DNA from: a virus
IMG/VR virus record: IMGVR_UViG_3300021960_007868
Span: 1 to 50,886 of that record
Direction: 5' to 3' (one strand)
DNA length: 50,886 bases
Under the pieces are notes generated by a model that was not told where the DNA came from, made no database searches, and saw only the letters and a list, made by a program, of their open reading frames with translations. Position numbers and translations under genes: made by a program. Below, piece after piece: positions 5,447 through 38,500 of this stretch; within the stretch, counting starts at the first letter, position 1; the number at the start of each line of letters is the position of its first letter.

Positions 5447-6048
5447 TTACGTCCTATTAGCAAGAATCTATTATACAAGGGAAGTTCTAATGTGTCTCTA
5501 GTATATACTTTACTTAGTCCGCTAGTTTTTTCAAATTCTTCTATTGTGTTATAACAGCGTATGTGATTTGGTATATCAATATAATTATTATTTTGTATTG
5601 CAATAGCAGTTCCTTGGGGTACACGCTCTAACCAAGTATTGTATTGCTCTTGTGTAATGTGTTCGGTACTAGTATTAATTACTAGATCAGGCTTGTATTC
5701 GTATTCGTATGTACACATATCACAAGTAATAGCATTAAACTTACCGTCTATCTCTTGTCGTTTACAAATCATGTTTGCTACTTCTTCACAAGTTGGGTCA
5801 ATGTCAACACTACGTATGTCATTTATTTCAATGTTGCTGTTGAATAGCAAACTAGACAATACGCCGTTCCATCCACCAAAAATTACAATGTTTAACGGAC
5901 CTCGTCTATGAGAATTATGTAGATGCTCAACTAACCATACTTTGCTTTTTAATTGCCCTTTCCAAAAACTTTCTAAAACACCAAAATGATTTTCGTTGTT
6001 GCGTATTGCATCCATCCAAAATGCTACATCATCTAAATCTACCAACAT
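5443..6048 (-). CDS. Class I SAM-dependent methyltransferase-like protein
   Basis: 201 aa. Residues 53-62 (NIVIFGGWNG) form a glycine-rich strand-loop like methyltransferase motif I, residues 81-84 (VDID) give the acidic residues expected to hold the SAM ribose, D110 follows a short strand, and DLVINTSTEHI near 121-131 fits the motif IV strand. Together this is a Rossmann-fold methyltransferase, shorter than many. Acceptor unknown. Start ATG 6048 overlaps the end of the upstream gene by 10 bp; the stop overlaps the twitch radical SAM gene by 4 bp. In this operon it could methylate a sugar or peptide handled by the neighbouring enzymes, which is inference. Confidence 0.7.
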   Translation of the reverse strand: MLVDLDDVAFWMDAIRNNENHFGVLESFWKGQLKSKVWLVEHLHNSHRRGPLNIVIFGGWNGVLSSLLFNSNIEINDIRSVDIDPTCEEVANMICKRQEIDGKFNAITCDMCTYEYEYKPDLVINTSTEHITQEQYNTWLERVPQGTAIAIQNNNYIDIPNHIRCYNTIEEFEKTSGLSKVYTRDTLELPLYNRFLLIGRK

Positions 6049-14020: not shown

Positions 14021-15364
14021 TTGCATAACTGGTTTAACTGTCTTTATTTCTTACCTCGAAGTAAATGCAAGCCCGAACTAATTCGAAACGATGGCAACAC
14101 AACACCATTACAACAGATTGGCAAAATTGAAGGATTAATGGATTTAACCAATGAAAGTTTTATTGGAAGATTTCCCGAGCCTACTATAATTTATAACGGT
14201 ACACACAATATTCCAAATTTGGATAAACTTTTTATATCAGATAAGCATACTCAAATTCTAAAAACTCAAACTATACATTTTTTCTTTTTTGAAGTATTAA
14301 CACACTACATACCAAACAAGCATGGCAGACTTGAACCGCACATTTTAAAAATTGATAACGAGCCTGAAAAAATTTCAAAGATTCGTTGTTATGAATTAGA
14401 TACGCTAAATGCATGGGCAAAACAACATGATATAGATCTTGTTGTATATTGTACAGATCATAAGAGTTGGGAATACTATCAAGATATCTATCTAAATATT
14501 ACACTGCGTTCGTTAGACTTGTTTGTAAGTTGGTTTAGTCAACGATTTAATATGCAAGAGGAATATAACCGAGCTGGAATGATACCAGGAGATATATATC
14601 CTATTATTCAACATAAAAAAGTTATTAAAAAGTTTTTTAGTGCAGCATGGAGATACGATCCTACTAGACATTTTATGAATGCGTTTTTAGCAAAAGAAGG
14701 AATTACCCAATCAAGCGAAATTAGTTTTTATCATAAAGTTAGCACCGACGATATGATTGCAAATATGTGGTTTGACTGGAAACAATTTGAAAAACGACAT
14801 CCCCAAATGGCAAGCGATTTGATCGAAGGTAACGAAATATTACAAACACAGGTTCCGTTGAGTTTTGAGACAAAAAATCCAATTGCTTGTGACATAACAC
14901 AATCCGATCCTGATTACAATACACCTGGGCCATATAATAGACGACGAACACAAGACCCTGAATTAACATATTCACGGTGTTTTGTTGCTATTATTAATGA
15001 AACTCGAGTAACACAACCATGGCCGAATATTAGTGAAAAAACAATGAATCCAATAAAAGCATTTCGACCAATGATTCATGTTGCTGCGCCTGGTACATTA
15101 AAATATTTACAAACTATGGGATTTAAAACATTTGACGATTTTTATCCTGAAGATTACGACAACATTAAATGCACCAGCGACAGATTAGTTTCTGTATGCG
15201 AAACAATTAAGTATGTAAATAGTTTTGATATTAAAGAGTTACGTAAAATGTATGTTAAATTAATACCTCGAGTAATGCACAACTATGAAGTATTACAACA
15301 CACTTACAAATGGTTTGACGAATATAATTTAAAACTAGATTCCCAAAGTTTATCTGCCCAATAA
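14021..15364 (+). CDS. SEKT-family protein, possible GT-B-type glycosyltransferase (TTG start)
   Basis: 447 aa, the longest and most divergent of the four family members and the only one on the plus strand. The family core is near the C-terminus: ISEKTMNPIKAFRPMIHVAAPGTLKYL, then MGFKTFDDF and EDYD. TTG 14021 has GGAG 7 nt upstream, while the first ATG in frame would remove 39 residues and has no such signal, so TTG is the better start. The 3' end overlaps the convergent SGNH gene by 61 bp, the largest such overlap in the window. The function is inferred as for its paralogues. Confidence 0.58.
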   Translation: MHNWFNCLYFLPRSKCKPELIRNDGNTTPLQQIGKIEGLMDLTNESFIGRFPEPTIIYNGTHNIPNLDKLFISDKHTQILKTQTIHFFFFEVLTHYIPNKHGRLEPHILKIDNEPEKISKIRCYELDTLNAWAKQHDIDLVVYCTDHKSWEYYQDIYLNITLRSLDLFVSWFSQRFNMQEEYNRAGMIPGDIYPIIQHKKVIKKFFSAAWRYDPTRHFMNAFLAKEGITQSSEISFYHKVSTDDMIANMWFDWKQFEKRHPQMASDLIEGNEILQTQVPLSFETKNPIACDITQSDPDYNTPGPYNRRRTQDPELTYSRCFVAIINETRVTQPWPNISEKTMNPIKAFRPMIHVAAPGTLKYLQTMGFKTFDDFYPEDYDNIKCTSDRLVSVCETIKYVNSFDIKELRKMYVKLIPRVMHNYEVLQHTYKWFDEYNLKLDSQSLSAQ

Positions 15365-16053
15365 GTGTGCGCCGGTAACTTATGATGCCAGTATTCCTGA
15401 TCTGCTGTATTAAATCCGTTATTTGAGCAGTGTTCGTAAAAACTTTCTTCAGAATTATCCCAATCTAAAAAATGTTCTTTATCAATACGTTGTGCATAAT
15501 AATCATATCTAGAAGAATTATTACAACATTGAAATGCATTTCTAAAAACATATTTTGCACCATGTGCTTTTAACAACTCTTGAGTTTGAATGATATTATT
15601 GTATCTGTTAATATCCCACTGTACAGGATTTATAAACAGATAATTTCCTAACTTATCTAAATTACTATGCCATAATTTTGGTGCCCAATCAGGATAATGC
15701 TGTGGATGCAAATGTGTTACTCTAGTATCAGGCTTATAAGTAATAAAGTCAAATGCTGTTGTATTGCCGCTTTCAAAAAAATATTCTGTTCTGTTTGTGC
15801 CTGTCCAATGTATTAAAAATATAGTGTCCTTGACTAGTGTAGGGTTATCTATAATCCAATAGAGCGTTGTACGTGCAATATAGTCGTTACTAGCACCAGG
15901 ATACGCAATGTTTGTGTAATTGTATCCCAAACGTTTTGCTATCTGTGCGCCAAAACAATTTTGCCTATTGTAATTACCTTCGCCAATACCGCTGCCTTCG
16001 ATCTCGCTTCCGGCACTATGACTGCATCCATTAACAAAAAGATGATTAGGCAT
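15304..16053 (-). CDS. SGNH/GDSL-type hydrolase
   Basis: 249 aa. Block I is VNGCSHSAGSE with S11 as nucleophile, YPGASND supplies N56 for the oxyanion hole, and a histidine-rich HHKLPAHTYWAD near residue 228 likely gives the catalytic histidine. LIHWTGTNRTEYF around residue 90 is the block III-like strand. It is a different subgroup from the 9568/11459 pair. As the last gene of the 24399-15304 operon it overlaps the upstream radical SAM gene by 8 bp, and its 3' end overlaps the convergent SEKT-family gene by 61 bp. Substrate unknown. Confidence 0.7.
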   Translation of the reverse strand: MPNHLFVNGCSHSAGSEIEGSGIGEGNYNRQNCFGAQIAKRLGYNYTNIAYPGASNDYIARTTLYWIIDNPTLVKDTIFLIHWTGTNRTEYFFESGNTTAFDFITYKPDTRVTHLHPQHYPDWAPKLWHSNLDKLGNYLFINPVQWDINRYNNIIQTQELLKAHGAKYVFRNAFQCCNNSSRYDYYAQRIDKEHFLDWDNSEESFYEHCSNNGFNTADQEYWHHKLPAHTYWADKLWESSFKLYSSNHL

Positions 16054-17017
16054 TTATAGGCTCTTTTGGTATAATTATATCTGTGCCGCAATGACAATGT
16101 TGTTTACTACATATAACAGGCTTCATATCAAATGTCAAGTCTTCATCTAAAATATTTCCATGTGAGTTGCCAACTCCGCAACTTGCACTTGACATTTCAC
16201 CTCTTGGATTGATAAACAATGCATCGTCAACAAAACACTTCCACCCTTTGAAGAAGTTTTGTCTATCTGCAATAATGGTGTTGCTGTTTGTTGGCACAAT
16301 TGTTCCGTCATCATAATAACTATTACTAATTGCTTTGTTTTGTCTATACGGCTTTGGTATAGACATTTTAGTTTCAAACTGTGCAGCTTCTAAAAACTTA
16401 ACCTTTTCAGGATCAGTATATTGCCAAGGTCCGGCATTAACACTCATTTCGTCAAACAACGGTGTCCATTCTAAATTGTAATTAGGCACTTCTTCTTTTA
16501 CACGATTGCCAAATTCGACTACTTCCCAAAAGCGTTCTTCATGCATCAACATCTTTGTGCATAGATAGTCAACTTTGTTGCATAAAAATTGTGCATTTTC
16601 AATGTAACGATCTTTCTTACAAAATTCTACATGAAAACTAGCAACAATATCGTCAAACAAATGACAATGCTTTTCCCAATACTTTACAGGACGTGATAAG
16701 TTTGTATTCACTGCTACTGTAAGATTGTCGCCTAATTCGTCTTTTAAATATTCTGTAAGAGGAATAAAGTTTTCCCAGTGTGTAGGTTCGCCGCCACTGT
16801 AAAATATTTTAAAGTATTTGTACCCTTTGTCTTGATACTGCTGAAATATACCACGTACATTTTTCATGTACGTGTCAAGATTACTATTGTTTCGATTTGA
16901 TCCTGCCCAATTACCTGGATTGCAGTATGTACACTGAAAATTACAGAAATTATTTACTTGCCACGTTATTGTAGCATACGGTTCTGCCATTGGAGTAATT
17001 TTTGTTAAGTTAGACAT
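16046..17017 (-). CDS. Radical SAM protein, short form with C-terminal Cys cluster
   Basis: 323 aa. C25-x3-C29-x2-C32 (CNFQCTYC) is followed by FYSGGEPTHW. The C-terminus carries FFKGWKC, a SCG motif, then PVICSKQHCHCGTDI, which matches the layout of the protein at 3162-4070 and suggests an auxiliary cluster ligated by C-terminal cysteines. As in that case the gene immediately upstream is a twitch-type radical SAM (8-bp overlap), so a short-plus-twitch pair occurs twice in this window. Substrate unknown. Confidence 0.87.
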   Translation of the reverse strand: MSNLTKITPMAEPYATITWQVNNFCNFQCTYCNPGNWAGSNRNNSNLDTYMKNVRGIFQQYQDKGYKYFKIFYSGGEPTHWENFIPLTEYLKDELGDNLTVAVNTNLSRPVKYWEKHCHLFDDIVASFHVEFCKKDRYIENAQFLCNKVDYLCTKMLMHEERFWEVVEFGNRVKEEVPNYNLEWTPLFDEMSVNAGPWQYTDPEKVKFLEAAQFETKMSIPKPYRQNKAISNSYYDDGTIVPTNSNTIIADRQNFFKGWKCFVDDALFINPRGEMSSASCGVGNSHGNILDEDLTFDMKPVICSKQHCHCGTDIIIPKEPINA

Positions 17018-18293
17018 ATTTTCTTAACCACTCCATTTCAGGAAACGTACTCCAAAAGTCTTCTTTACGATGTTGATCAAGTCCGTGATTTTTGTCGAAG
17101 AACTGTTTTAGTTTATCTTTGTTTAATTTGCCTGTATTCATAAATTGTATCACACTATCAATTTTACCAAGTACATCTTTTACTACTGCTGGATTAGTTG
17201 CTATACGATCTTTAATCTTATCGTATGCCCATGCTTTATAATCAATGTACTTACTACGTAATTCAATCTTATACTCGTTTGGGATATTATCTAAACGCAT
17301 AAAGTCTGGATCAGTTAACATATTTAACCTACAATTTTCAATATCAACTAGTCCACGTTCAACCCAGTCCATATGAAAGTCTGGCCAGTTCCAAGCATTG
17401 TACATGCTTATTGTTGGTGTTAGTTCAAAATGAATATTAGGCAAGTGTTCGAGCATTTCTTGTCGATTACGTTCAACAGTATCCCATACTGTGCCAAACC
17501 GCATAAACTCAGCTCTTGCGCCCATTGCATCTAAACTTGCACTAACTTGGATATCAGGAAATTCCTTCCAATAATCAATAATACTCTTTTGTTTAAATCT
17601 TAGATTACTAAAATTAGTTGTATAACGTAGTCGCACATCAGTCTTGCCAATGTCAATCCAATGGTCTAATATTTTATAATGTTCGTCTGTGATAAGTGGC
17701 TCACCGCCTGCCCAATACACTTCTTCAACATCGGGCAAGTATTGTTGTAATTCGTTCCAAAAGTCTTTGTGCTTTGCTACATTAACAATATTACTACCAT
17801 TATTTTTTAGTATATTAGCAACTTCATGCTTTCCGTATAACTCGCCGTGTTCTTGAGCATGTAAACTACTCAGTTCGGGTCCGCATGATCTGCACTTCAT
17901 GTTACATATGTTACTAAAACGTATATCCATGTACGCCATACGCATTTCATCAATGCTACCGTCTGTATTTGTTTTTTCAACTAGATCAAAATGTTTATCG
18001 CCAAACCATTGATTATGATTTTTACGCAATGTCCAAATGTAAGTACTATCCTCAAGTTCGTAGCAACGTCTGCAACAATCTAGTTTTTCACCTTTGAGCA
18101 TTGCCAAACGTAGTTCTTTGTATTTGTCACTATTCCAAACTTCTTTGATACTGTTTTCTTTAACGTTACCGAAAGGCTGATCACTATCAGCAATGCAACA
18201 AGGCATTGCTCTGCCATCGGGCCAGGCGTGCATGTGTATCCACGGAAGAATACAAAATGCTTTATTGTGTTTTAGTAAATTATCTTTATCCAT
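17010..18293 (-). CDS. Twitch-domain radical SAM protein
   Basis: 427 aa. N-terminal twitch-like region: CILPWIHMHAWPDG from C14, the pair C32-C33, WNSDKYKELRLAMLKG, then C73-C74-x2-C77. The radical SAM core has C130-x3-C134-x2-C137 (CNMKCRSC) and WAGGEPLI. It is similar in layout and wording to the downstream-numbered neighbour at 18286, pointing to tandem duplication. It overlaps the 18286 gene by 8 bp and the 16046 gene by 8 bp. The family reaction is unknown to me; members usually occur in clusters with glycosyltransferases and other radical SAM genes. Confidence 0.88.
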   Translation of the reverse strand: MDKDNLLKHNKAFCILPWIHMHAWPDGRAMPCCIADSDQPFGNVKENSIKEVWNSDKYKELRLAMLKGEKLDCCRRCYELEDSTYIWTLRKNHNQWFGDKHFDLVEKTNTDGSIDEMRMAYMDIRFSNICNMKCRSCGPELSSLHAQEHGELYGKHEVANILKNNGSNIVNVAKHKDFWNELQQYLPDVEEVYWAGGEPLITDEHYKILDHWIDIGKTDVRLRYTTNFSNLRFKQKSIIDYWKEFPDIQVSASLDAMGARAEFMRFGTVWDTVERNRQEMLEHLPNIHFELTPTISMYNAWNWPDFHMDWVERGLVDIENCRLNMLTDPDFMRLDNIPNEYKIELRSKYIDYKAWAYDKIKDRIATNPAVVKDVLGKIDSVIQFMNTGKLNKDKLKQFFDKNHGLDQHRKEDFWSTFPEMEWLRKYV

Positions 18294-19503
18294 TTATCAT
18301 TGATACCAGTTCAGGAAATGTTTCAACAAAATTTTCATTGCGTATTTTATCTCTCCTTATAGTATTATGTATAAACTCTTTGCCGTTTTGTTCCCAGGTG
18401 TGATCGCTATTAGCAAATTTTACAGCATTTTGTATGTGCTGTGTACACCAGAAGTCATCTTTAATTTCACTAATAACTTTTAACAGACCAAGTGTACCTT
18501 GTTCTTTTAATTCTAACGGAAGATTTTGCGCACTATAAAAACTAGGATTTAACAAATGATAAATGCTAATGTAATCGTGTTTGCGCAACAAGTCTTTATC
18601 AATCATATATCTAAAAAAGTCACCAAGTGTAACATAATTTAAATTACTTAACACACAGTTGAATTGATAGTTAATAAAATCAACATCTCTAATTGTATGT
18701 AAATTATTTTCTACTGTAAACCATTGAGTGCCATTGCGAATATATTCGGCCTTTGGACCAAAGTGATCTAAACTAGCACTAACTTCAATTTCTTTAAAAT
18801 TACTCCACATGTCAAGTATGTCGTATTTTTTATATCTAAAGTTACTCATGTTTGTATTGTAGCGCAATGTAATGTCTTTGCAACTACCATTAGCAATCAT
18901 TTCATTGAGTATTGTATAGTGTTCGTCAGTAATAAGTGGTTCACCGCCTGCAAAGTATGCTAATTCAATATTAGGAATCTGTTCTAATACTTGATCTAAT
19001 AGTTTACCACTACTATCAGCGTGTTGTACAACTCTAAATCCAGGAGGCGGCGCATCGTGTTCTTTGTGTTCTTGCCCCCATTTACTACTAAATTCACTAC
19101 CACAAGTTCTGCACTTAAAGTTACAAATATTGCTAAAACGTATATCGTAATATGCCATTGTAAACTTATCTAGGCTACCGTCTTCGTTAGTATAAGGAAC
19201 TAAGTCTTCGTACTTGTCTGCAAATTTTTCAATACTGTATTTTCTAAAACTGTAAGGAGAACTTTCTTCATGTTTGTAACAAAATGTACATGCTTCGTTT
19301 TTACGACCAGCTAACATATCAAGTCGTAACTGCTTCATGCGTTCAGTATTAAACGCTTGTTCAAGTGTTGTATCTTTTACATTAGCAAACGGCTCAACAT
19401 AATCACTACTACAACACGGATACACATCGCCCTTGGGTGTTACATTTAAGTGTAACCAAGGAAACATACAAAACGTTCCATTATCTAAATGCTTGTCTTT
19501 CAT
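18286..19503 (-). CDS. Twitch-domain radical SAM protein
   Basis: 405 aa. The N-terminal domain has C12 in FCMFPWLHLNVTPKG, the pair C30-C31, RLDMLAGRKNEAC with C72-x2-C75, and the core has C127-x3-C131-x2-C134 (CNFKCRTC) and FAGGEPLI. The stretch YDIRFSNICNFKCRTCGSE is nearly shared with MDIRFSNICNMKCRSCGPE of the 17010 protein. It overlaps the upstream radical SAM gene by 4 bp (ATGA). Function unknown beyond radical SAM chemistry. Confidence 0.88.
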   Translation of the reverse strand: MKDKHLDNGTFCMFPWLHLNVTPKGDVYPCCSSDYVEPFANVKDTTLEQAFNTERMKQLRLDMLAGRKNEACTFCYKHEESSPYSFRKYSIEKFADKYEDLVPYTNEDGSLDKFTMAYYDIRFSNICNFKCRTCGSEFSSKWGQEHKEHDAPPPGFRVVQHADSSGKLLDQVLEQIPNIELAYFAGGEPLITDEHYTILNEMIANGSCKDITLRYNTNMSNFRYKKYDILDMWSNFKEIEVSASLDHFGPKAEYIRNGTQWFTVENNLHTIRDVDFINYQFNCVLSNLNYVTLGDFFRYMIDKDLLRKHDYISIYHLLNPSFYSAQNLPLELKEQGTLGLLKVISEIKDDFWCTQHIQNAVKFANSDHTWEQNGKEFIHNTIRRDKIRNENFVETFPELVSMING

Positions 19504-20885
19504 AGCGTACTACTTGCTTCCTTGCATAACGCAAAGAAGTCAGACATTTCTGGAAATGTTTTTTCAAAATCTAGATTGCGTCTGCGATCATGTTCCTTGA
19601 AAAAGTTCCAAAAATCTTTACGACCTTCACGTACTTTGTTAACATCGTAAGTTGTATTTTTCATGTAATCAACTACACGACGAAACTTTTCGTATTCCAT
19701 TTCACTAAAATGTTCTTTGCTGCCTTCTTTGGTGTTGTCTTTAATAAACTGCAAATGACTTTCCATATACGGCAAATATGTTTCTTTGGGCAAAATATTA
19801 ATATCGTGTTGTAAAGGTTCTTTTAGATACGGTGTATCAAAATGAATACGTTGCCAACGTCCACTGTCGACATTGTTGTATTTGCGTCTTTGCTCAAGTA
19901 TTTTTTCAAGTAATGTTTCAAATGTTGTTACACTAAACAAACTAAATGTAATCATATATGTTACCGGTGCTGTTGTGCTTTGCATAAAATAATCAAAGTT
20001 ACGTTCAAACACACTAAGATCAAGACCGTCTCTAATATACTCAGCACGTTCATTCCATGTGTCTAAACTTGTAAACAACTTAAATGATTTAATTTTGTTT
20101 TGTGTAAGCAAACTATTTACACTATCAGTAAACTTAGCCAGTTGACGTTCTTTACCGCCAAAGTTACTGTTTACATTAAGTTCAAGATTTGGCTTAGGTT
20201 CTTTTTCAAGTTCGTCAAATAGTCTATATGTACTTTTTTGCATTGTAGGCTCACCACCTGTAACACGTAAGATGTTTAGTGTCTTACTAACTTCAGGCCA
20301 CCATTTCCACCATGCACGTACATATGGATTGCTGTCTTCTTCATATACTTTAAACCAGTCAACATCGCATCTATGATTTTTTGACATATCGTACGGGCCA
20401 TGTTGTCTAATTTCCTGGTGAAAGCGACTACTTGCTTTTGGATGACAATAACTACAACGGAAATTGCACTCGTTGCCAAATGAAACTTCGATGTATTCAG
20501 GATTTACATTAAAGTCCCAAGGATTAAATTTAATTTCTTGTAAACGTTGTTCGTTGTAAATACTGCCGCTGCGAATGTGTCTATCGCTAATATAGTCATC
20601 GCCCATGTTTTCAATATTCCAACAGTAGTTACAACCAACACATTGCTTGCCTTCTAACATTTCCTTACGTTCTTGTTTTTTATGTTTTGTATTATGTAAC
20701 GCACTTGGGTTAGTTAATAACTCATCAACATCAATCTTATGAGGTGCTGGATGGTAGCAACTGTGTGTTTCGCCTGTCTGTAAATATATTGTTGTATGAT
20801 ACCATTTTGCAAAACAAAAAGTCGGCGAAAAGTGCCGAGTAGTAATATCATTAATGTGTTTTACTTTGTCTGTCTGTAGAGACAT
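19500..20885 (-). CDS. Radical SAM protein with modified N-terminal Cys domain
   Basis: 461 aa. The core motif is C140-x3-C144-x2-C147 (CNFRCSYC), followed by VTGGEPTMQ. The N-terminus begins TFCFAKWYHTTIYLQTGETHSCYHP and has C24, C43 and then C82-x2-C85-x2-C88, a variant of the twitch pattern in which the double cysteine is replaced by a single one and the PW is replaced by KW. It is therefore a diverged relative of the three twitch-type proteins. Its start is separated by zero bases from the stop of the glycosyltransferase-like gene downstream, and its stop overlaps the 18286 gene by 4 bp. Substrate unknown. Confidence 0.86.
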   Translation of the reverse strand: MSLQTDKVKHINDITTRHFSPTFCFAKWYHTTIYLQTGETHSCYHPAPHKIDVDELLTNPSALHNTKHKKQERKEMLEGKQCVGCNYCWNIENMGDDYISDRHIRSGSIYNEQRLQEIKFNPWDFNVNPEYIEVSFGNECNFRCSYCHPKASSRFHQEIRQHGPYDMSKNHRCDVDWFKVYEEDSNPYVRAWWKWWPEVSKTLNILRVTGGEPTMQKSTYRLFDELEKEPKPNLELNVNSNFGGKERQLAKFTDSVNSLLTQNKIKSFKLFTSLDTWNERAEYIRDGLDLSVFERNFDYFMQSTTAPVTYMITFSLFSVTTFETLLEKILEQRRKYNNVDSGRWQRIHFDTPYLKEPLQHDINILPKETYLPYMESHLQFIKDNTKEGSKEHFSEMEYEKFRRVVDYMKNTTYDVNKVREGRKDFWNFFKEHDRRRNLDFEKTFPEMSDFFALCKEASSTL

Positions 20886-21818
20886 TTATTTTCCTTTGCG
20901 TGGTATTCTTGACGGACTTTGATATAGTGTTTTAAAGAAATGACTTTGCTGTGCATTTAAACATTCTTCAGCAATTGGAATTTCAAGTTCGTTGATAAGT
21001 TTTTGTCCTAATTCTTCTGTATAGTATTCGATGTCTTCATCTACAATGTCACCTTTTTCTTTCCAGTAGTTATTAAGATATTCAAAGTCACGTACTTGCA
21101 CATAGTCCCAATCTGTACACATTGTTTTATACAGACCTTCGCGAGCACCATATATTGCCCAACGACCGTTTTCAACATCGGCACCAATCATTAACCAGAC
21201 ATACAATCTATGCAAATTTTTCCAATGATTCTTTTTAAAGTCATCAATGCTTGGCTTCATGCCTCTGTCAAGTGCCATTTTAACACCTTCTCTAAATCCA
21301 GCACGCCATGCTTGATGCGGTGTATGATTATTCATAATTTCGCTATGGCACTGATTAATCTGTATATATTCCATATCCCAGCAAAAGTCAACTTGTGCAT
21401 GTGGATTGTTTGGATCAGCATTTTCATGTGTACGCATGTTAAGCACTTTTTCTTTAGGCCAACATTTAATACCGCCATTGCCGTACATTAATCCGTTGAT
21501 AGTATTTTTTGCACTCCAACTTACTACGCAGTCTTCAAACTTAATTGCTTTATTCCAATGTGCATCTTCGTGTGAATCTAAATCAAACTCTCTGCCAAGA
21601 AACTCTGCACTAACAATATTATCGCCATCAATAGTAATAAATCGATCAGTTTCGCTTAGTTCTGCACAAGCCTTATGTGCAGCGTCTGAACCTTCTACTC
21701 CATGTACACGTTTAGCCCAAGGAACTTTACTACACAAATCTGCATAATTTTTTTCAGCGTTTGGCTCATCATAACTTAGATAAATGATATCATAATCTAA
21801 AATTCTAAACTTGCTCAT
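20886..21818 (-). CDS. Glycosyltransferase-like protein with DxD motif
   Basis: 310 aa. The N-terminus reads like a GT-A glycosyltransferase: DIIYLSYDEPNAEKNY as the first strand and loop, a nucleotide-binding half, and DRFITIDGDNIV with D64-G-D66 as the metal-binding DxD. The C-terminal half (WRAGFREGVKMALDRG) has no recognised domain. The family resembles glycosyltransferase-like proteins found in marine phage and surface-polysaccharide loci. It is coupled to the upstream gene by a 4-bp ATGA overlap and abuts the radical SAM gene downstream. Acceptor unknown. Confidence 0.65.
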   Translation of the reverse strand: MSKFRILDYDIIYLSYDEPNAEKNYADLCSKVPWAKRVHGVEGSDAAHKACAELSETDRFITIDGDNIVSAEFLGREFDLDSHEDAHWNKAIKFEDCVVSWSAKNTINGLMYGNGGIKCWPKEKVLNMRTHENADPNNPHAQVDFCWDMEYIQINQCHSEIMNNHTPHQAWRAGFREGVKMALDRGMKPSIDDFKKNHWKNLHRLYVWLMIGADVENGRWAIYGAREGLYKTMCTDWDYVQVRDFEYLNNYWKEKGDIVDEDIEYYTEELGQKLINELEIPIAEECLNAQQSHFFKTLYQSPSRIPRKGK

Positions 21819-22387
21819 AGTAAAACCTCATGGTAATATTCTTCAAATCTCTTTATAGTATAAATGCTAACGTTGTTTTCGTCAAGTTCTAAATCGCTTG
21901 AAAATTTAAATTTAAAATCTTTATTGGCTAAATCAGCCGTGTTGACACTGATAAATTGATGCAATACATGCGGATCGTTTTTATTTGTAATACTAAATCC
22001 TAACTGACTTTTATATGCAAGTTTGCCTTTGCGTAAATTATCAGATATAGCCGAATCGAGTTTTATTTGCCAACAACGATTTTTTATATCTTGAATAATA
22101 GTAATGTCAGGACGAGTTGACGAAGTATTTGGAATTTGATATATTTGCTCGTTGATATCAAATCGATGTTCGTCTTCGATAAACCGATGCATCAGTTTGT
22201 GTGCTTTTGTTACAGTATCAAATATTACAACATAATTACTTACAACTTCATTGCCTGTAATTAAATTAGCAACTTCTTCATACTGAACTTCAATATAATT
22301 ACTACCTTCTTTAAAACTGTTGCCGATTCGAGTAATCGAGCCGTCTTCGTTAAAGTATACATATCGCACTGTTGATAGTTCTAACAT
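21815..22387 (-). CDS. Unknown protein in glycosyltransferase/radical SAM operon
   Basis: 190 aa. I do not recognise it. It looks like a small mixed alpha/beta soluble protein with no cysteine cluster, no membrane segment and no signal peptide. It is joined to the GT8-like gene upstream by a 1-bp TAATG overlap and to the DxD glycosyltransferase gene downstream by ATGA, so it is made together with them. It might be an accessory subunit, but nothing in the sequence shows this. Confidence 0.65.
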   Translation of the reverse strand: MLELSTVRYVYFNEDGSITRIGNSFKEGSNYIEVQYEEVANLITGNEVVSNYVVIFDTVTKAHKLMHRFIEDEHRFDINEQIYQIPNTSSTRPDITIIQDIKNRCWQIKLDSAISDNLRKGKLAYKSQLGFSITNKNDPHVLHQFISVNTADLANKDFKFKFSSDLELDENNVSIYTIKRFEEYYHEVLL

Positions 22388-23226
22388 TATATTCCTAATT
22401 GTGTTTCGTATGTTTTTATAATTTTTTCATTACAAAAACTATCTTCGGTATAATGAAAAATACCAGTCTGTGTATAATTTCCAATTGTTAACTGACACTT
22501 GTTATTTAAGTAAACACCAAGTTGTTGTTGCCAATTGTTGACGTATAATTTGTCCCAGTTTTGATTATGTAATTTCATATGCGTAAATGTAGGATAACTA
22601 GTATCTAATGTAACATTGTGTTCGCATCCTAAAATTTTTGTAGCAATTGCACAGCTAACGTCCATACTAGGCCACTTTTGAAAATACTTACCGCCGGCAT
22701 ATTGTCCGTAAAATAGTTCCCAGTTATGCATGATAAGTTCGACTAATTTAAAAAACTTGTGTGCAGTATCGCTTTTCTTAAACCAGTGACATCCAACATA
22801 TATATTGGGCAAATAATGATTTCTAAATGCTTTTCTGTAATATGTATTGTCTGCTATTTCACCACGGTATGTTAGTACCTTATTTACAAAATACAAATCT
22901 TTGTTTTTCATTAAATCGTGCCAATGAGAAATATCAGATAACACCAACATGTCAGTATCAATTACTGCTGTTTCGTCAAATGGTGTTGCATGGTAGATTT
23001 TCCATCTGTTTTCAATCTTCCATTGGCTGCCTTCGGCTTCGTCTTTCCATGGGATGTCAACTACATGATCAAACAACTGTTTGTATTTTTCAGGAATCGT
23101 GTTGTTTGTAATTACTGCAATTTTACTTTTTGGATTTGTTAGTCTAATGCTCATAGCTGCAACACTAGCTTGTTGTACGTAATCAACATTGCTATTTTGT
23201 GCAAACATTGTAAAATTAATACTCAT
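22387..23226 (-). CDS. GT8-like glycosyltransferase
   Basis: 279 aa from ATG 23226 (a TTG codon immediately upstream is also in frame); AGGA lies about 9 nt before. The layout fits GT8-like GT-A enzymes: repeated strand-helix units (SKIAVITNN), a middle WRWKIYHATPFDETAVIDTDMLVL segment with D90-T-D92 as the DxD, and a C-terminal HYTED segment. These enzymes move sugars from nucleotide donors. It is a paralogue of the product of 23216-24058 and its gene overlaps that one by 11 bp. Confidence 0.68.
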   Translation of the reverse strand: MSINFTMFAQNSNVDYVQQASVAAMSIRLTNPKSKIAVITNNTIPEKYKQLFDHVVDIPWKDEAEGSQWKIENRWKIYHATPFDETAVIDTDMLVLSDISHWHDLMKNKDLYFVNKVLTYRGEIADNTYYRKAFRNHYLPNIYVGCHWFKKSDTAHKFFKLVELIMHNWELFYGQYAGGKYFQKWPSMDVSCAIATKILGCEHNVTLDTSYPTFTHMKLHNQNWDKLYVNNWQQQLGVYLNNKCQLTIGNYTQTGIFHYTEDSFCNEKIIKTYETQLGI

Positions 23227-24058
23227 CAATGATCCTATTCAAACTAAATTTATTCATAATATGAACATTGCAGTCTTTTATGCAGAGAGGAAAATAATCT
23301 ACTCTGTCTTGCTTTTGCATTAATAATTTAATAGTGCTACCTTTAATTTCATAACACACATCTTTATCAGTTGCATAATATTTTTTACCAGGCATTTGTC
23401 CAATAAAGTTTCCTGACATGTGTCCGTTAAGTATGTGTGCTGCAATACTAAATGCAAAATCGTTTCTAAAAGTTAAAGATTGTATTCTATACAAATTACG
23501 ATAATGTGCCCAGTTGTCTTTGATATGGGTAACTAAATTAAAATACATTTCTGTTTTTGGAGATTTTTTAAAATAGATAATAGTTGCCCAATAAAAATCA
23601 ATACCGTTTGGAGAAATATGTTTAAATTCAGAGGCATCTCTCCAGCCTGATAAGTCAACTGAATCTTTGTATAGCAAAAGATCCTTTTGCTGTGCAAAGC
23701 AATGTTTTAGTGTATCATTACATAATATGTAATCGGTATCCATTACAATAGTTTCGTTATAAGGAGATAGTTCGTAAACTTTATCACGGCTGGTATTTTT
23801 CCATTGTAACTTGTATTCTGCATGAACACCGTCTCGGAATTTTTTATAATTATTTACACCAGAATTTTCAATTGTAATAACTTTATCAAATACCGACACT
23901 TTATCTTTATAATTTTCGTAAAGATATGCACTGGTACTTGTAACTAAAGTAACAGGTATTTTTAAATATTTTTTTATTCGTTCTGCACAAAATATTGCTT
24001 GTTTTATATAATCAACTTGGTTGTTATTACATGCAATTAAAAGAGCACCTTTGCTCAT
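23216..24058 (-). CDS. GT8-like glycosyltransferase
   Basis: 280 aa. YELSPYNETIVMDTDYIL has D107-T-D109 as the DxD metal site, preceded by a GALLIACNNNQVDYIKQAIFCAERI opening and IPVTLVTS strand as in GT-A folds. It aligns in outline with the protein of 22387-23226 (NxxVDYxxQA, then ET-V-DTD), so the pair is a duplication. The start overlaps the 24055 gene by 4 bp (ATGA). Donor and acceptor unknown. Confidence 0.68.
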   Translation of the reverse strand: MSKGALLIACNNNQVDYIKQAIFCAERIKKYLKIPVTLVTSTSAYLYENYKDKVSVFDKVITIENSGVNNYKKFRDGVHAEYKLQWKNTSRDKVYELSPYNETIVMDTDYILCNDTLKHCFAQQKDLLLYKDSVDLSGWRDASEFKHISPNGIDFYWATIIYFKKSPKTEMYFNLVTHIKDNWAHYRNLYRIQSLTFRNDFAFSIAAHILNGHMSGNFIGQMPGKKYYATDKDVCYEIKGSTIKLLMQKQDRVDYFPLCIKDCNVHIMNKFSLNRIIDEY

Positions 24059-24399
24059 GTTTCGATAATACCTTCGACTGATCTATTTGATATAAGTTTG
24101 TCGTATTCGACAAAGTACTTGTTGCTTGCTTGAAAATATGTGTTACTAATACCTTCTTGAAATTCTTCAATTACTACATTTACTGGAATATTATTGTTGT
24201 CAGTAATTACAATTTCATCTTGTCCAGAATTTTTCATTGAATAGCAAAATGTAATCAATTCTTTTGTAGCTGTAAAAGTTCCGCCTTTGTAATAATAAAG
24301 CAAATCTTCTTGATATTTTTCTTTTAGTATGCGTCTTTGGTTGTCTAAAGTAATCATATAATTACTAAATTCAAGTGCTTTTTGTAGCCGTTCATCCAT
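24055..24399 (-). CDS. Small conserved phage protein of unknown function
   Basis: 114 aa beginning MDERLQKALEFSNYM. From memory, similar small proteins are widespread in marine T4-like phages, but I know no function. It has no motif I can name; two short beta-rich stretches (GGTFTATKELITF and DEIVITDNNNIPVNVV) flank a linker. It is the first gene of the long 24399-15304 operon, with TGGAG as Shine-Dalgarno and a consensus host-type promoter directly upstream. That position suggests it is made early in infection. Confidence 0.7.
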   Translation of the reverse strand: MDERLQKALEFSNYMITLDNQRRILKEKYQEDLLYYYKGGTFTATKELITFCYSMKNSGQDEIVITDNNNIPVNVVIEEFQEGISNTYFQASNKYFVEYDKLISNRSVEGIIET

Positions 24400-24411
24400 T
24401 ACAAATCTCCA

Positions 24412-24435
24412 TTATCGTATTATTATAAACGATAA
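24412..24435. repeat. Inverted repeat flanking the -10 box
   Basis: TTATCGT (24412-24418) and ACGATAA (24429-24435) are perfect 7-base complements separated by 10 bases that contain the TATAAT. It could be an operator for a repressor or activator, or a weak hairpin ending the upstream virion transcript; there is no T-run after it on the minus strand. Confidence 0.6.
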
Positions 24436-24450
24436 ATGAGTAAATGTCAA
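24422..24450 (-). promoter_or_regulatory. Perfect sigma70-type promoter TTGACA-N17-TATAAT
   Basis: On the minus strand TTGACA (24450-24445) is followed by exactly 17 bases and TATAAT (24427-24422). Transcription would start near 24415 and read into the gene at 24399. Both hexamers match the bacterial consensus fully, which is unlike the TATAAATA motifs of the virion genes and implies early transcription by host polymerase. Confidence 0.8.
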
Positions 24451-24453
24451 CTA

Positions 24454-25488
24454 TTATTCTGGTTGCGGAGTTGCGTCTGCTAGTGTGTGTATGTTTGTAA
24501 TACTAGTACCATTTACAACACCAGTATTATCTACCGCAGTATAGTTTGCAGCATTATAATTAAATGTACTATCAGCATCGTATGTAGTAACTGCGCTTGT
24601 AAGTGTTCCGTTTACTGTTTCGTCGATTGGATCGTCATCGCCACCCGGATCAACGCCTTGACCACCTGTGCCAGTGTCGCCATCAACAAATCGTATTTTT
24701 AAACGTAGTTTATCAGTAGTAAAATATCCATATATGTCATAATAGTTATCTGAATATACTCCACTACCGGATTTACGGAACATTAATCTATATGTGTTTG
24801 TTGTAAGATCTTTTAAACCTCTGTATATCGTTCCTGAATCAGCACTAGTATTGCATTTGTCTATTTTAATTGTGCCAGCTGCTGATAATAGATCGGCCCA
24901 ATCTAAAGATTTTGCTCCACTAGCACCTGATAGCGAAGGATTAAAATAAATGCGGCCACCGCTTTCAATCCAATGATTCATACGAGCTGCACTACTAAAG
25001 TTTACTGTAATTACATGGTGTAGTATAGCATTACTTGCAGCAACACCCCAGTTAGTAGTCCTTTCAGCACTAGCAGAGGCAGCAAGACTAAAACTTGCAT
25101 CTGGAAATCTTAAATGATCAGCATCAACACTAAATGAAAATGTTTCAATACTAGTTGCTACTGCTTCATAATCATTATATCCCATTTGTGAAGAATTTGG
25201 TACAGCACTTTGAGAACCGTCAGATTGATCATGCGATAAAGACGTGTCAGCGCCAATTGTTTGTCCAGTTGCAGGCGGTACTAAACTTGGCATTGACTGA
25301 TTTTGATGCACATAGGCGCTAGTTAAGTCTAGAAATAAATTAATATGCTCGTCATCTTCAACAGTAGTATCTGCCGCTTGGTCAGAAGAGCGTACTGTTT
25401 GACCGTATAAGGTATCATATACCGCATCAACTGAGTCTTTGATACTATTGTAGTTTGCTGCTGTAATTGATCCGCCGACAGCTACCAT
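24454..25488 (-). CDS. Virion structural protein (tail-fibre-associated type)
   Basis: 344 aa. It opens MVAVGGSITAANYNSIKDSVDAVYDTLYGQ, a signature shared with the next protein (MAVGDIISVARYNQM) and, from memory, with virion proteins of marine T4-like phages. A second shared block is LTSAYVHQNQSMPSL. The rest is low-complexity, Ser/Thr/Asp-rich beta-type sequence with a GGDDDPIDE linker before a repetitive tail. It lies 1 nt after its paralogue, with AGGAG as Shine-Dalgarno. Exact location in the particle unknown. Confidence 0.75.
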   Translation of the reverse strand: MVAVGGSITAANYNSIKDSVDAVYDTLYGQTVRSSDQAADTTVEDDEHINLFLDLTSAYVHQNQSMPSLVPPATGQTIGADTSLSHDQSDGSQSAVPNSSQMGYNDYEAVATSIETFSFSVDADHLRFPDASFSLAASASAERTTNWGVAASNAILHHVITVNFSSAARMNHWIESGGRIYFNPSLSGASGAKSLDWADLLSAAGTIKIDKCNTSADSGTIYRGLKDLTTNTYRLMFRKSGSGVYSDNYYDIYGYFTTDKLRLKIRFVDGDTGTGGQGVDPGGDDDPIDETVNGTLTSAVTTYDADSTFNYNAANYTAVDNTGVVNGTSITNIHTLADATPQPE

Positions 25489-25489
25489 G

Positions 25490-26422
25490 CTATGCTCCTA
25501 GTGTTTGTGTATTTGTGTAAACCGGAGATGCTACTTCGACATAATCATTTGATAATGCGTTTGAATAGGTTGCACGTTGTTGCTCTACAATACTTCTAAA
25601 GTTTCCGCCTACTGGTTCGTCAATGCCAGAAGTGCCATCTCCTGGATCTAGCGGTTCGCCGTCTTGATAAGATACTTTAAAAGTTATCTTGTTTGATGCA
25701 CTATTCATTTTAGCTTGATATGTAATGTTGTTGTTTTCATATGCTCCAGCACCTGGTTCGTAATACCATATGTTAACATAGTTTCCGCCGGGTGTCAAGT
25801 CATAAGCACCAATATTATAATCAGTGCCTGAGCCAGCAACTGTATCTGTATAACTAAACTTTACAACGCCTACAGTAGTACAGATGCTGTTCCAACTTGT
25901 ATATTTTGCACCCGAGCCATCGGATATTGACGAGCGAGTTCTTATTTCTCCGCCACTATTAAAAAATGCACGTAAATGGTCAGCATCAGTAAAAGTTACT
26001 TCCCATTCGTGTATAATAATTGGTGTACCTGGCTGTCCCCAATCTGCACTGCGATTGACTGCTAGTTTAGATTCAGTTGATACTTGATTAATATTATAGC
26101 TTAAGGCATTGGTTTCAACATCAACTGCAATTGATTCATATTCAGCATATACACTATCAGTAATATCGTCACTTGTAACAATATCAGTTAATGTTGGAAG
26201 GCTATTATTTTGGTGTGCATATGCTTTTGTTAGATCAGTTTTAAGAGTCTGCATATGTGTAGAATTAACCACAGTTGGGCTATTATTTACATTTGTAGGT
26301 AAGCTACTACTTGCAACAGCTTGCCCATATCCAAATGTTGTTGATCCGGTACCTAATACTTTGCTTGCTCTTGCTTGCATTTGATTGTACCTTGCAACAG
26401 AGATAATATCTCCGACAGCCAT
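25490..26422 (-). CDS. Virion structural protein (tail-fibre-associated type)
   Basis: 310 aa, paralogue of the 24454-25488 product: N-terminal VGDIISVARYNQMQARASKVLG followed by FGYGQAV, then LTKAYAHQNNSLPTL, then a VTFTDADHLRAFFNSGGEIR block that matches VNFSSAARMNHWIESGGRIY of the other. A DGEPLDPGDG linker precedes the C-terminus. GGAG precedes ATG 26422, and an exact TATAAATA lies 23 nt upstream of the start, so it begins its own late transcript as well as being readable from upstream. Confidence 0.78.
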   Translation of the reverse strand: MAVGDIISVARYNQMQARASKVLGTGSTTFGYGQAVASSSLPTNVNNSPTVVNSTHMQTLKTDLTKAYAHQNNSLPTLTDIVTSDDITDSVYAEYESIAVDVETNALSYNINQVSTESKLAVNRSADWGQPGTPIIIHEWEVTFTDADHLRAFFNSGGEIRTRSSISDGSGAKYTSWNSICTTVGVVKFSYTDTVAGSGTDYNIGAYDLTPGGNYVNIWYYEPGAGAYENNNITYQAKMNSASNKITFKVSYQDGEPLDPGDGTSGIDEPVGGNFRSIVEQQRATYSNALSNDYVEVASPVYTNTQTLGA

Positions 26423-26445: not shown

Positions 26446-26453
26446 TATTTATA
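26446..26453 (-). promoter_or_regulatory. T4-type late promoter TATAAATA
   Basis: Exact TATAAATA on the minus strand, overlapping the TAA stop of the upstream tail-fibre gene, with a 23-nt leader carrying GGAG before ATG 26422. Confidence 0.65.
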
Positions 26454-32531: not shown

Positions 32532-32537
32532 TATTTA
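32532..32537 (-). promoter_or_regulatory. Late-promoter-like AATAAATACAGTA
   Basis: TAAATA core at 32537-32532 on the minus strand with an 18-nt leader before ATG 32513. Its first three bases are the TAA stop of the giant gene, so chance cannot be excluded. Confidence 0.4.
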
Positions 32538-35500
32538 TTTAGGTAGCTCAATAGTTGCTCCGCGGATAAATCTTGCAATTGCAGAATTGCTATTTCTTAA
32601 TGTTTCACCGGCAGCAATCCAACGTTTTCCTGTTCTTTTCACTACACGGATCTCTGTGTCTACTGCTGGTGTTGTTGTAAATTGAATATACTTATTACCT
32701 CCAACTGTTACAACTTCGTACTCTTTTGTTCTAATTTCGTCTGCTTCAGGACTATCTTGTGCAAGAGTTTTATTGTAAACTGAAATATCAACTTTACTTA
32801 ACTTGCGTCCTCCTACAAACACTTCGATTTCGTTTGCGTTATCAATATCAAATCCTAAATCAACAATTTGATTTGAACCATCGGCTCTGTCTCTGTATAC
32901 ATTATATGTATCTCTATAGTCAATAGTTTCAGCTGAACCTTGACCGTAAGCTATATCGCCAGCTGCATGTAAGTCTTTTACACCAGTACCTAGTGTGCCT
33001 CTTCTGAGCTGAGATAACGTATTTCCTTGTACTGCAAAGTATTCAATACGTTCTCCGTCTACCCAAATAATACCAGGCAAGTTTAATAAAATATCAGGCT
33101 CTTGAATTCCTGTAGCATCTACTAAGACAATTTTATTGTCGTATGGACTAACAGGATTAGCAATCATAAAACTATTTTCTTTACTAAGACGTTTGTAATG
33201 TGTTCTACCTAGCATGTCTCTAAATATTCTATAGCCAAATTTATCTGACGATACCGGTGCTGCCCAATGCATTACTTGAATACGATCGTTTTCATTTACT
33301 ATATCTTTAAGACGTACTGCATTTAAATTTTCCATTACTTCATAATCAACAATTGGATGCAATAATCTTTTGTTCTTAACAACCCAAACATATTGAGCAC
33401 CGGCTGCTGCTGATTCAAGTTGGACAATTCCACTTGATAACAAGTTTCGTCTAGCAAATTCATCAGTGTTTTCATTAACTACTGTTTCGGTTAAAACATC
33501 ATATGTAAATCTTCTAAATTGATTAATATCATGATTACTAAAGTGCATTACTCGATATGTAGTAAAGAGATCATCGTAGATATTAGGATTAATGCTAATA
33601 CTGTCACTGTCAATAAATTCAATTTCGCTAATTTTTACGGCTGTTGAATCAGCAGTTACATAGAAATCTTCGTCTGCTATAAATTCATCTCTTATATCAC
33701 TAACCATACTTTGTACAACAACAATATTATTACTTACTGACTTTACAATAGGCTCAAAGCGTGTTGACGATGCTCCGCTAACTAATAGCAACGGCTGTCC
33801 TACTGTTACTTGAGATTCCATATTAACTGCTGTACTACCGTCAAGTGTAGTAAATGTTAATGCAGTATCAATAAAATAATAGTCTGCATTTTGTAAACAA
33901 TAGATATCTAATTTACTTCCTGCTGGAGCAACATTAGTATCAAGTAGTGTAATTCTAGCGTTTACATTATCCCAAGACCATTTCGAAGTGTCAAGTCTTA
34001 CATCATTTACATATACAATAAAATCAATTTTTGCTACTGATGCTAAATTTTCAAATTGCCATCCATCAATATCGTAACTTAAACTACTTGTAGTTGTAAA
34101 TCTAATACTATAGCCAGGGCTTAAAATATCTTCATCGCCAAACACTAATAAGTTATGTCCTAGTGGCAAATCATTAATTGGGGTAAATGTATCGGTAAAG
34201 TTCCAATAGTTTCCAATACCATTTGACCACGAGTAATCGTTATTAATTTGACTATAAGAAGTAATTCCGCTATCGTAAACAGCATATTGAATAACATTGC
34301 CTTGGTCTAGTCTTACTCTACCGCCTGGAATTTCGATTACTAGTTTGTCTGCAGGCTCAGTTGTGTTGCTATTGTTCAAGAAATAATCGCTGCCCTCAGT
34401 CTGAACAGCACCATTTAATATTACAATGCAACTTGCATCACTACTGTAATCAGCTGCTGTTACAAAACGCCAGTTGTCACTTTGTATTGCACTCGAATCT
34501 TGTAGATCAAATTCATTAATTTCAATTGTTTTACTATCAATTAAACTATTACCATTTGCACCAAATGTCATTACAGTAATAATTGATCCTACGTTAATAT
34601 CAATATCGCTGTCAATGAATACACTTTCTAAACTATAATCATTATTGTAAGTGTCTGTTCTTAGTACAACCTTATCGACCATTACAACAATGTTATCTTC
34701 ACCAAAAGGTTTTTCAGGATATGCAAACTCTCTAGTCGACCCATCAAAGATATAATGAGCTACATGTATTTGTGCTTGTCCGTCATTTTGCCTAGTATAA
34801 ACTTGTAAATCAAGTGTATCAGTTACAGTACCCGGAACTAACTCTTCTGGGCCTCCACTGTTTGTTGGAGTAAAGAAGCCATCGCCGTCAACAGTTATTT
34901 CACCCGAAGGTATACCAGTGGCTGTAGTTCTGTCTAATGCTCCGCCTTGAAGTGCAGTATCGAATGTCGATCCTACTGGTGAGAAACTACCATCGCTTGA
35001 TTGTTTTCTAATAATAACTTCGTCGTCAGCAGTTGTACTAAATGCTCCATTAATATCAATTTCTGTTTGAACACCGTCTCCGGTAATTGTAGCCATTACT
35101 GCATTTTTATTAGCAGTAATAGTACTTCCGTCGTATAACGGATCGTCAAGTCTTACACCGTTTAAATATAGGTTATACTCTACGCCGCTTTCTAGCGGAG
35201 AAGATAATGTAATTATATTTGTACTACCGTCTAACTTAATAATTTCGTCGTCGTATGTATTATCAAATGTATCCCAAGGTAGGTCACTAAATCCGCCAAC
35301 TCCAAATCCTTGTTCGCCGCCGAAATCAAAGCTATCATACAATGCGCCTTCGTATTCAACACCAGTCATTAGTTGACTAAATTCTTTACCAGGCATACCA
35401 GTTGTTGGATCATATTCATAGAATATTCTATCTGCTGCATGTAACAACGTTGTATCTTTTTTGTATTTTACAACTACTACATCATCAATTTTTGGTTCTG

Positions 35501-38500
35501 TAACTAGTGTAATTTTGCCTAAATATCTGTCATATCCTTTTGTAGTATCAAGTTTATTAACAACACTATATTCAGTATCTAATAATTCAACGTTGTTGAG
35601 TGTCACTGAGTATGTTGTAATATTTTGATTGATTGGCCACTGTAGTGTAAAAACTTCTTGTGCTCCAGTTCCAATAAACGTTTCAGTTTTGTCAATTGTT
35701 TCAAAATACTTTTTGCCGCTGATACGATCAAACTTTACAGTCATGTGTGTACTTCGAACGTTTGGATTGCCTAGTATTGCAGATGCTCTAACTGCTGTGC
35801 CATCGTTTGACTGGTTGCCTGAAACTGTGATAGTTGGTGCAGATAACACTCGACTACCTTTATTTAAAATTTCAATACTTTTAACTTTACCTTTGGCAAC
35901 ATATGCTTTTGCAGTTGCTCCACTTGTACCGCTTATAGTAACAGTTGGTGTATCGTAGAATCCACTGCCGCCGTCGGCAACATCAATTCTTATAATTTCG
36001 TATGCATTATTGTCAACCCAATTTTTATAAGGATATGTAAAATATTTTTCCCAAAGATTTGTTACTTCGTTATTATTAAACTTTGCTGCACTAGGAGTAA
36101 TTTTACCTCCAATATAACTTGGTGGCAAATCAAAGTCTGTTATCATACTTTGTGTAGGTTCTATCTTTTCATATGCACTAATGTATTCTCTAACTTTTGT
36201 TTTGAAAGGCTTTACTTCGTTTATGTAATCTTGATAGTTTTCTAGGTTATCATTTTGATATGCAACTTTTTGTTTTAAATCGCCGACATTGTGTTTGGCA
36301 CGTAAGAAACTAGATTTAAATACCCAATCAACATTGTTCTGTTCTGATAATACATATCTAACACTTGCAAAGAATAATTTGTTGTATTCAACTACTAAGT
36401 CGCCAACAAATATATCTTCTTTTATTGCATTAATAATATTGCGCAATTCGTTTACTGGTTCTCTATCATAAAAAGTAATATCGTAAACACCAGCGTCATA
36501 CCCAGTAGTTTCTGTGGTATAATTATAAATTACATCTAATAATTTAATTGTTCCGTTTTGTCGACCTACTGTATCATAATTAAGAGTGTAATCTTCTGTA
36601 TCTTGATTGTCGGTTTTCTTTAGTAACAGCCAGCCGCCGGTGCCAATATTTTTAATTTTTACTACATCACCAATTGAATTGTCTAATCCAAATAATTGAT
36701 AGCTACCATCAATAACTTGATGAATTACAGTTGATTCGCTATAACCAGCAGCATACCAGTCAGTATAACTCCAGTACTTTGTTGTATCAAAACTTTGGTT
36801 GTCGGTTCTTTCCCAATCTGCTGTAGTCTTATTGTAAATGTAAATTGCCCAGCGTCCGCCAATTGTTTCGTCAGCTGTAACTAAAACACTAAACGGTCTT
36901 ACTTTTAAGAAAGTAGTTGGTGTATAATCGTATCCTTGATTTTTTACCGTAACACTAGTAATTTGTCCATTACTGTTAATTGTTGATGTTATTTCAGCAT
37001 TTTTACCAGTAACATCTTCAATTTCAATCACCGGTGCTGCTTTATATCCATTACCAGGATTATTAATAGTAACACTAGTAATTTTACCAAATTCAATTAC
37101 AGGAGTTAAAACTGCTTGTGTGTTTTTTGCAGTACCAACAAATTGCAATTCGCTAACAGTATCAATCTGTTTATCAAATTTTCCTTCAGCAGCTAACGGC
37201 AACGAATCAACTAATAATAATTTACTAATACTATAATTGTCAACAATTAAAGTTTTGGCAAACACACTGTTTATTCTATCAACAAATTGTTTAACTGCTT
37301 CAATGCGGTTAATAAACATTCCTTGTCTTGGTTGATTTAGAACTCCGTATTTTTTTGTAGCTGATAATGTAATATCAGGTACAGTATTTCCTACTTTGTC
37401 ATAACCAACCAAACTGTCAATCCACTTTTGCTCAATAGAACTATTTGGCATTGACAAATCAAGACCTTCCGTCATCAAATCATATTCTCGATGAATTGGA
37501 ACGTTAATTGTTGTGTCTTTTTCTTTTCTAAAATGCAAAATAGTATTATCTTCTTGTACTAAATTTTTACAGTTATAAATTGCAAATTTGTTATTTTCTA
37601 ATAATGCTACAAATCTATATCCTGTGCCAGCTGGATCTGCAATTAGGTTTGTTATAGATTCGCAACTTAACGAACGTCCAGCAACACGAGGCACAATTTG
37701 TGCATTTTCTACCCAATAATAATATTTTGTAGTAAATCCTTGCTTTACTGGATCATAAACTTGTTTGCTACTATAGGTATCGTCGTCGTATAGGGCCAAG
37801 CCACTTATACCTTTTGTGTAACCAGCAGTTGTTCCTGATTGTGCATTCCACTCGCTTGGCAGTAAGTTAGTTTCAACCCATTCACAAACTTGTATACGTG
37901 AGTTAGGTAATAGTTTATTAAACACATTTGTTCGATATTGACTATTGCCTTGATACGGATTATACCAGCTTGCTTCCTTAAGGTTCCACCAAAGTTTTCC
38001 AACATAACGATCGGTCCAATTTGATTGAACATCGACAATAACATCACTAGTATCACTAGACGACGAATATGTAGCTGGATCATACCATGTTTTAAAACTT
38101 AGCTCTTGTTCTGCAGGTCCTGCAATTTTACCCTGTCGTGGATCAATTACGTCTAATCTTTGAATTATGTCAGCAGTATCTTTTGCATATAAAAATACTT
38201 GTTGCAATTGTTCAATATTTGGTTTAGCAATTTGTGTTGTAAGTTCGCTCCAAGTATTTTTACCTGTTGCAAAACTAAAGTCAACTATTAGTCCTGGATT
38301 AACAGATGTTACATACCTCGAGTCATTATCGTAAGGCTTAGGCATAAGTGTTGCAACTATTGTTGAAATATTTAAATATAGATGATTGTCATTTAAGACA
38401 ATATTTTCCATTTCGTGGGTTGCAGTATTGCGGCTATAGTCAACATCTTCGGCATACACATACAAATCATTAATTTCTTGGAATAAAATAATTCTTCCTG

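Follow-up and report, generated by a model that had tools for sequence, protein, structure and literature searches.

In phage T4, RNA structures at the ribosome site silence the genes e, soc, 49 and I-TevI (PMC3014915). For e and I-TevI, the structure arises on long early transcripts, and a late promoter located in its upstream arm yields an RNA without it; for e, masking lowers translation about 100-fold (PMC3014915). PMC2988022 points out that every gene regulated by such a nested-promoter hairpin is late.

Here we analysed the complete virus record IMGVR_UViG_3300021960_007868 (50,886 bases, the whole stretch of DNA, hereafter the window), in which a promoter lies within an inverted repeat upstream of an enzyme operon. 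As with T4 e, soc, 49 and I-TevI, and also segB and Aeh1 mobE, the hairpin proposed here would exist only in the longer read-through RNA, and in both cases a promoter nested in the upstream arm of the hairpin would give a short translatable mRNA (PMC3014915, PMC2988022). In T4 a late (TATAAATA-type) promoter is nested in the hairpin and silencing affects early or middle read-through, whereas here the nested promoter is of the sigma70, early type and late read-through would be the one silenced. Since the promoter class is reversed, the mechanism would be of a known kind acting in the opposite temporal direction, in an enzyme operon; this reversed arrangement is not described in the portions of the T4 literature that were compared (PMC3014915, PMC2988022).

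The early promoter with stem-loop (PeSL) of T4-like phages likewise combines an early promoter with an intergenic stem-loop, but the present site mostly has no T run, occupies a fixed genomic place and overlaps the Shine-Dalgarno sequence. The stem-loops of PeSLs are reportedly terminators and recombination cassettes, a description attributed to Arbiol 2010 and Comeau 2014. Cyanomyoviruses carry sigma70 early and NATAAATA late promoters, the same promoter classes as here, and no nested hairpin is described in the available portion of PMC2984593. The operon resembles the host recognition cluster of pelagimyophages, in which radical SAM cassettes and GT8 enzymes are interspersed with fibre genes and presumed to modify the surface of the host (PMC7029224). 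In both, the fibre genes have GT8-type glycosyltransferases and radical SAM cassettes behind them; the middle or late promoters of pelagimyophages could not be predicted in that study.

The right half of the window encodes T4-type baseplate genes (gp6-like, 46280–49765; gp25-like, 49818–50264), a 4581-aa protein and fibre-type proteins. The 4581-aa protein is a single ORF (32535–46280) located between the fibre genes and baseplate gp6; it may occupy the position that VrlC has in pelagimyophages. The late motif NATAAATA occurs nine times in the window, and seven copies lie at most 45 nt upstream of gene starts, where 0.12 would be expected. Four of these seven starts belong to fibre or baseplate genes (26422, 27942, 32513 and 49765); outside the virion units are two more (252/291) and the accessory gene at 12187, so the accessory genes are not all early. 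The earlier note had assigned such motifs to all virion units, which is essentially right; four virion starts (29829, 31901, 25488 and 46280) have no late motif of their own and look operon-internal. A second minus-strand cluster at 2114–8939 encodes an NAD-dependent epimerase and a further three radical SAM proteins; it is preceded by a TGTAAATA motif, not by a sigma70 promoter. The late unit that precedes the operon contains the following features.

26446–26453, minus strand: TATAAATA late-type motif, upstream of the fibre genes preceding the operon
24454–26422, minus strand: two fibre-type genes, read towards the operon

The operon itself runs from 24399 to 15304 and comprises ten genes with no strand change.

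24055–24399, minus strand: first gene, 114 aa, predicted helix-hairpins-helix, with weak likeness to prefoldin and DUF4376 phage proteins
23216–24058, minus strand: GT8-like glycosyltransferase paralogue, with a DTD motif and an hhalign match of 99% to the second 280-aa protein
22387–23229, minus strand: GT8-like glycosyltransferase, with a glycogenin profile match (E 1e-4) and a DTD motif
21815–22387, minus strand: 190-aa core gene, fast-evolving
20886–21818, minus strand: 310-aa gene, the most conserved of the core, with a DGD motif and an N-terminal alpha/beta half
15304–20885, minus strand: lineage-variable operon tail, four radical SAM proteins and a DUF6071 protein

In the relatives checked, the fibre genes are followed by the first five genes (114, 280, 280, 190 and 310 aa) in unchanged order, a comparison limited by the reach of the relatives' loci and, in a few, by a 190-aa gene too divergent to match. 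For the first and fifth genes, no homologue was found among 50,697 phage records. For the 310-aa protein, the DGD motif and the N-terminal alpha/beta half, in a weak model, suggest a GT-A-like enzyme. The radical SAM genes behind the conserved core differ between lineages, and in the window three of the four exceed the threshold for the twitch-domain family NF033640. A terminator-like site lies at 20822–20838, just past the start of the first radical SAM gene and at the border of core and variable tail.

The promoter and the hairpin upstream of the first gene are arranged as follows.

24422–24450, minus strand: sigma70-type early promoter TTGACA-N17-TATAAT (−35 box 24450–24445, −10 box 24427–24422, 12/12 match)
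24415, minus strand: predicted transcription start, 7 nt past the −10 box, from sigma70 geometry
24429–24440, minus strand: hairpin left arm CUC-AU-UUAUCGU, within the promoter spacer and outside the early transcript
24407–24418, minus strand: hairpin right arm ACGAUAA-UG-GAG, whose GAG belongs to the Shine-Dalgarno GGAG (24410–24407)

The perfect housekeeping promoter and the framing of its −10 box by TTATCGT/ACGATAA, both pointed out in the earlier note, were confirmed. No other 12/12 sigma70 match than this promoter was found in the window, and chance would give 0.05 per window and about 0.001 immediately upstream of a gene start. The repeat is likewise the only exact match in the window. 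The stop codon of the fibre gene lies only a few bases before the −35 box, and NATAAATA is not present in the leader of the 24399 gene. A query with the first gene retrieved at least 585 relatives, all metagenomic contigs, which we grouped into lineages by a simple identity cut-off, so that related sequences are partly non-independent. Each of the 61 distinct upstream sequences in the first set of relatives carries a promoter of at least 10/12, and 54 carry one of at least 11/12, while shuffled upstream sequences reach at least 10/12 in about 3.8–3.9% and 11/12 in 0.16%. In 61/61, the distance between the −35 box and the stop codon of the upstream ORF, the fibre gene, is −4 to 14 nt. When more divergent relatives are included, the promoter is found in 97 of 113 distinct upstream sequences. 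Eleven of the 16 relatives without it have TAAATA in the same region, and thus the operon has apparently switched from the early to the late class in some lineages.

L368, L375, L376, L378, L382, L399: late-like TAAATA, no sigma70 promoter, upstream of the p114 homologue
L403, L411, L412, L417, L419: late-like TAAATA, no sigma70 promoter, upstream of the p114 homologue

In a sister genome, 54 of 92 sigma70-type sites lie near ORF starts, compared with 4–7 of 24–36 for control motifs, and the genes behind this promoter class are of early or replication type (exonuclease, SbcD-like, GTP cyclohydrolase and regulator-like). Early transcription of the operon from 24399 to 15304 by the host polymerase is, as a prediction from these sequences, well supported. 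Of the earlier proposal of an early operon with its own regulator, the early part is thus upheld, by the promoter in all 61 sequences and the same class before early genes in the sister genome, while the dedicated regulator is not.

The related genomes show further early-promoter arrangements. In G001 (L113, L114; −10 boxes ending at 57253, 65011, 70685, 83605 and 90638) and G006 (L131, L132; 18496 and 29381), perfect TTGACA-N16/17-TATAAT promoters are followed by an ATG 5–6 nt past the −10 box, so that the mRNAs are predicted to be leaderless; the genes concerned include one radical SAM protein and one weak QueC-like match. In L131:500–10500 (G006), short early genes are densely packed, most of them behind their own TTGACA-N17-TATACT/TATAGT promoter, and long inverted repeats cover the −10 box at 864, 1620, 2053 and 2332, apart from the Shine-Dalgarno sequence.

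In the window, TTATCGT (24435–24429) and ACGATAA (24418–24412) enclose a 10-nt loop that contains the −10 box, and beyond a 2×2 internal loop CUC (24440–24438) pairs with GAG of the Shine-Dalgarno sequence (24409–24407). The 7-bp repeat alone has p of about 0.11–0.13 against an AT-rich promoter background. Folded as RNA together with the leader, the region reaches z −3.25, and none of 200 dinucleotide shuffles is as good; compared with re-pairing with other lineages, the window arms give z −3.6 (p about 0.009), among the strongest.

The sequence TTATCGT/ACGATAA is common only to near-identical phages, and elsewhere the same position holds unrelated arms: CTAGTAT/ATACTAG, TCTCCTAGTACTATAT/ATATAGTCCTAGGAGA, TTATTCATA/TATGAATAA, GGCAATAT/ATATTGCC and ATTGTATC/GATACAAT. 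When the Shine-Dalgarno pairing alone was shuffled, the excess was only modest, and we therefore adopted a stricter left/right null, in which real spacers (with the −10 box) were joined to real leaders of other lineages, avoiding composition artefacts. Across 33 lineages, the native hairpin energy is −237 compared with −127 ± 10.6 after re-pairing (0/20,000 permutations; about 10 sd, P ≤ 5e-5), and 16 lineages unrelated to the first set replicate this result (−123 vs −64 ± 9.1; z −6.5, P ≤ 5e-5). Stems scoring at least 8 are formed by 15 native pairs compared with 5.9% of swapped pairs (44 lineages). The earlier note had suggested checking whether the repeat is conserved in relatives: the arm sequence is not, whereas the ability of the promoter spacer to pair with the leader that follows the −10 box is. 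An ordinary early promoter whose repeat is an accident of AT-rich sequence would agree with the p of about 0.13 for the 7-bp repeat in the window alone; the excess of about 10 sd over re-paired arms, replicated at 6.5 sd, contradicts it for the family as a whole and makes it extremely unlikely, and it could still hold for single lineages.

Several lineages, such as L173, L202 and L171, show no hairpin at this position. As a general trait of early promoters the hairpin was rejected, as the other early promoters of two sister genomes are without it (n=11 each); the early array of a third sister genome does show the hairpin signal, among promoters that are mutually similar and include its own p114 promoter. 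At L371:1440–1500, a 13-bp hairpin (AACCCTCCTTATT/AATAAGGAGGGTT) lies over the Shine-Dalgarno sequence with no good −35 box.

A palindrome over a −10 box could also be a DNA operator, at which a dimeric phage or host repressor shuts the promoter and which co-evolves with its protein in each lineage. The perfect 7-bp arms around the −10 box fit such a site, and the antisense strand likewise folds above chance. The half-site, however, is not conserved, and arms unrelated between lineages make a fixed operator unlikely. An operator common to several sites was rejected, since the window and the records of six relatives hold no second exact copy apart from the orthologous site, and the operon proteins have no match to an HTH family. 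The dedicated regulator of the earlier note, as a DNA-binding protein, finds no support, given the same unrelated arms and the lack of recurrence elsewhere in the sister genomes.

The strands and the mismatches bear on whether the repeat acts as RNA or as DNA. The sense strand folds more strongly in the first set (mean z −1.33 vs −0.68; 44/61), an excess not replicated in the second set (z −6.5 vs −7.4), so that strand asymmetry alone is indecisive. Among non-Watson-Crick positions, native stems have 15.8 G-U against 2.9 A-C, compared with 184:137 in swapped stems (p 0.013), a preference for G-U over A-C that runs counter to an operator. Specifically, in L088 the innermost A of the right arm is replaced by G opposite T with a G-U pair kept, and the stems of L165 and L221 exist only as sense-strand RNA. 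An RNA hairpin in read-through transcripts, predicted to mask the ribosome-binding site (RBS), explains the repeat better than a DNA-binding site does, and we regard the operator as unlikely.

Two other roles of a hairpin at this place were weighed. In a composite terminator-promoter of the PeSL kind, the hairpin would end or weaken upstream late transcription and the nested promoter would restart it. Early promoters with stem-loops are known in T4-like phages (cited in the available portion of PMC4503421), and in a few lineages (L178, L397, L239) the stem is followed by a T run. Only 6 of the 61 sequences, however, have at least four T after the Shine-Dalgarno sequence, which speaks against a terminator as the general role; the stem of the window, AT-rich and closing a 10-nt loop, lacks a T run, and a terminator scan did not list it. 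We consider this role quite unlikely. The hairpin lies just past the fibre stop codon in 61/61, and it might instead protect or process the 3' end of the fibre mRNA, its nearness to the ribosome site being incidental. The energy needed to open the RBS depends on the native left arm, and we take this role to be very unlikely, although the leader is too short for geometry alone to decide.

These opening energies favour the RNA hairpin that masks the RBS. The left arm lies entirely upstream of the −10 box and of the predicted start, so that the short transcript would lack one arm and only read-through RNA could form the hairpin. By folding and covariation, the arms are predicted to pair in the long RNA and to mask the RBS. 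Over 33 lineages, the predicted cost of RBS opening is 3.4 kcal/mol in the early transcript, 7.9 in native read-through RNA and 5.8 with a foreign left arm (P 5e-5), and the replication set gives 3.0, 7.7 and 5.2, respectively. The corresponding values of the window are 2.0, 7.8 and 5.2 kcal/mol; for this single case the masking of GGAG does not differ significantly from that by foreign left arms (p 0.12).

We propose the following sequence of events. Early in infection, the unmodified host RNA polymerase would start at about 24415, inside the right arm; the early mRNA, without the left arm, would leave GGAG free, and the glycosyltransferase/radical-SAM operon would be translated. Later, transcripts from NATAAATA late promoters would cross the fibre genes into the operon, a read-through expected because the fibre stop codon lies only a few bases from the −35 box and because the terminator scan found no minus-strand terminator-like site from the late motif at 26453 up to the start of the operon. 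These longer RNAs would hold both arms, the −10 region would become the loop, and the Shine-Dalgarno sequence would be covered or abutted, so that the operon would be poorly translated late. In our judgement the element is probably an early promoter set within a translation switch, by which the operon is expressed early and silenced translationally on late read-through.

The gene content points to a purpose of the switch. Early glycosyltransferases may remodel the host surface, and early-only modification of receptors or precursors might benefit the phage by avoiding late waste or a late change of the receptor.

Together, we lean towards reading this locus as an inversion of the T4 nested-promoter switch, in which an early host-type promoter within an RBS-masking hairpin confines the glycosyltransferase/radical-SAM operon to early expression, late fibre read-through is silenced, and compensatory change maintains the pairing across dozens of environmental T4-like lineages. 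If so, nested-promoter hairpins would serve both temporal directions in T4-like phages, and RNA folding would solve the problem of read-through where no terminator separates late from early genes. The arrangement would also provide a sequence-level marker of early-acting genes in the host-recognition islands of uncultured relatives of pelagi- and cyanomyophages, and it would argue that glycosyltransferases beside fibre genes act on the host before virion assembly.
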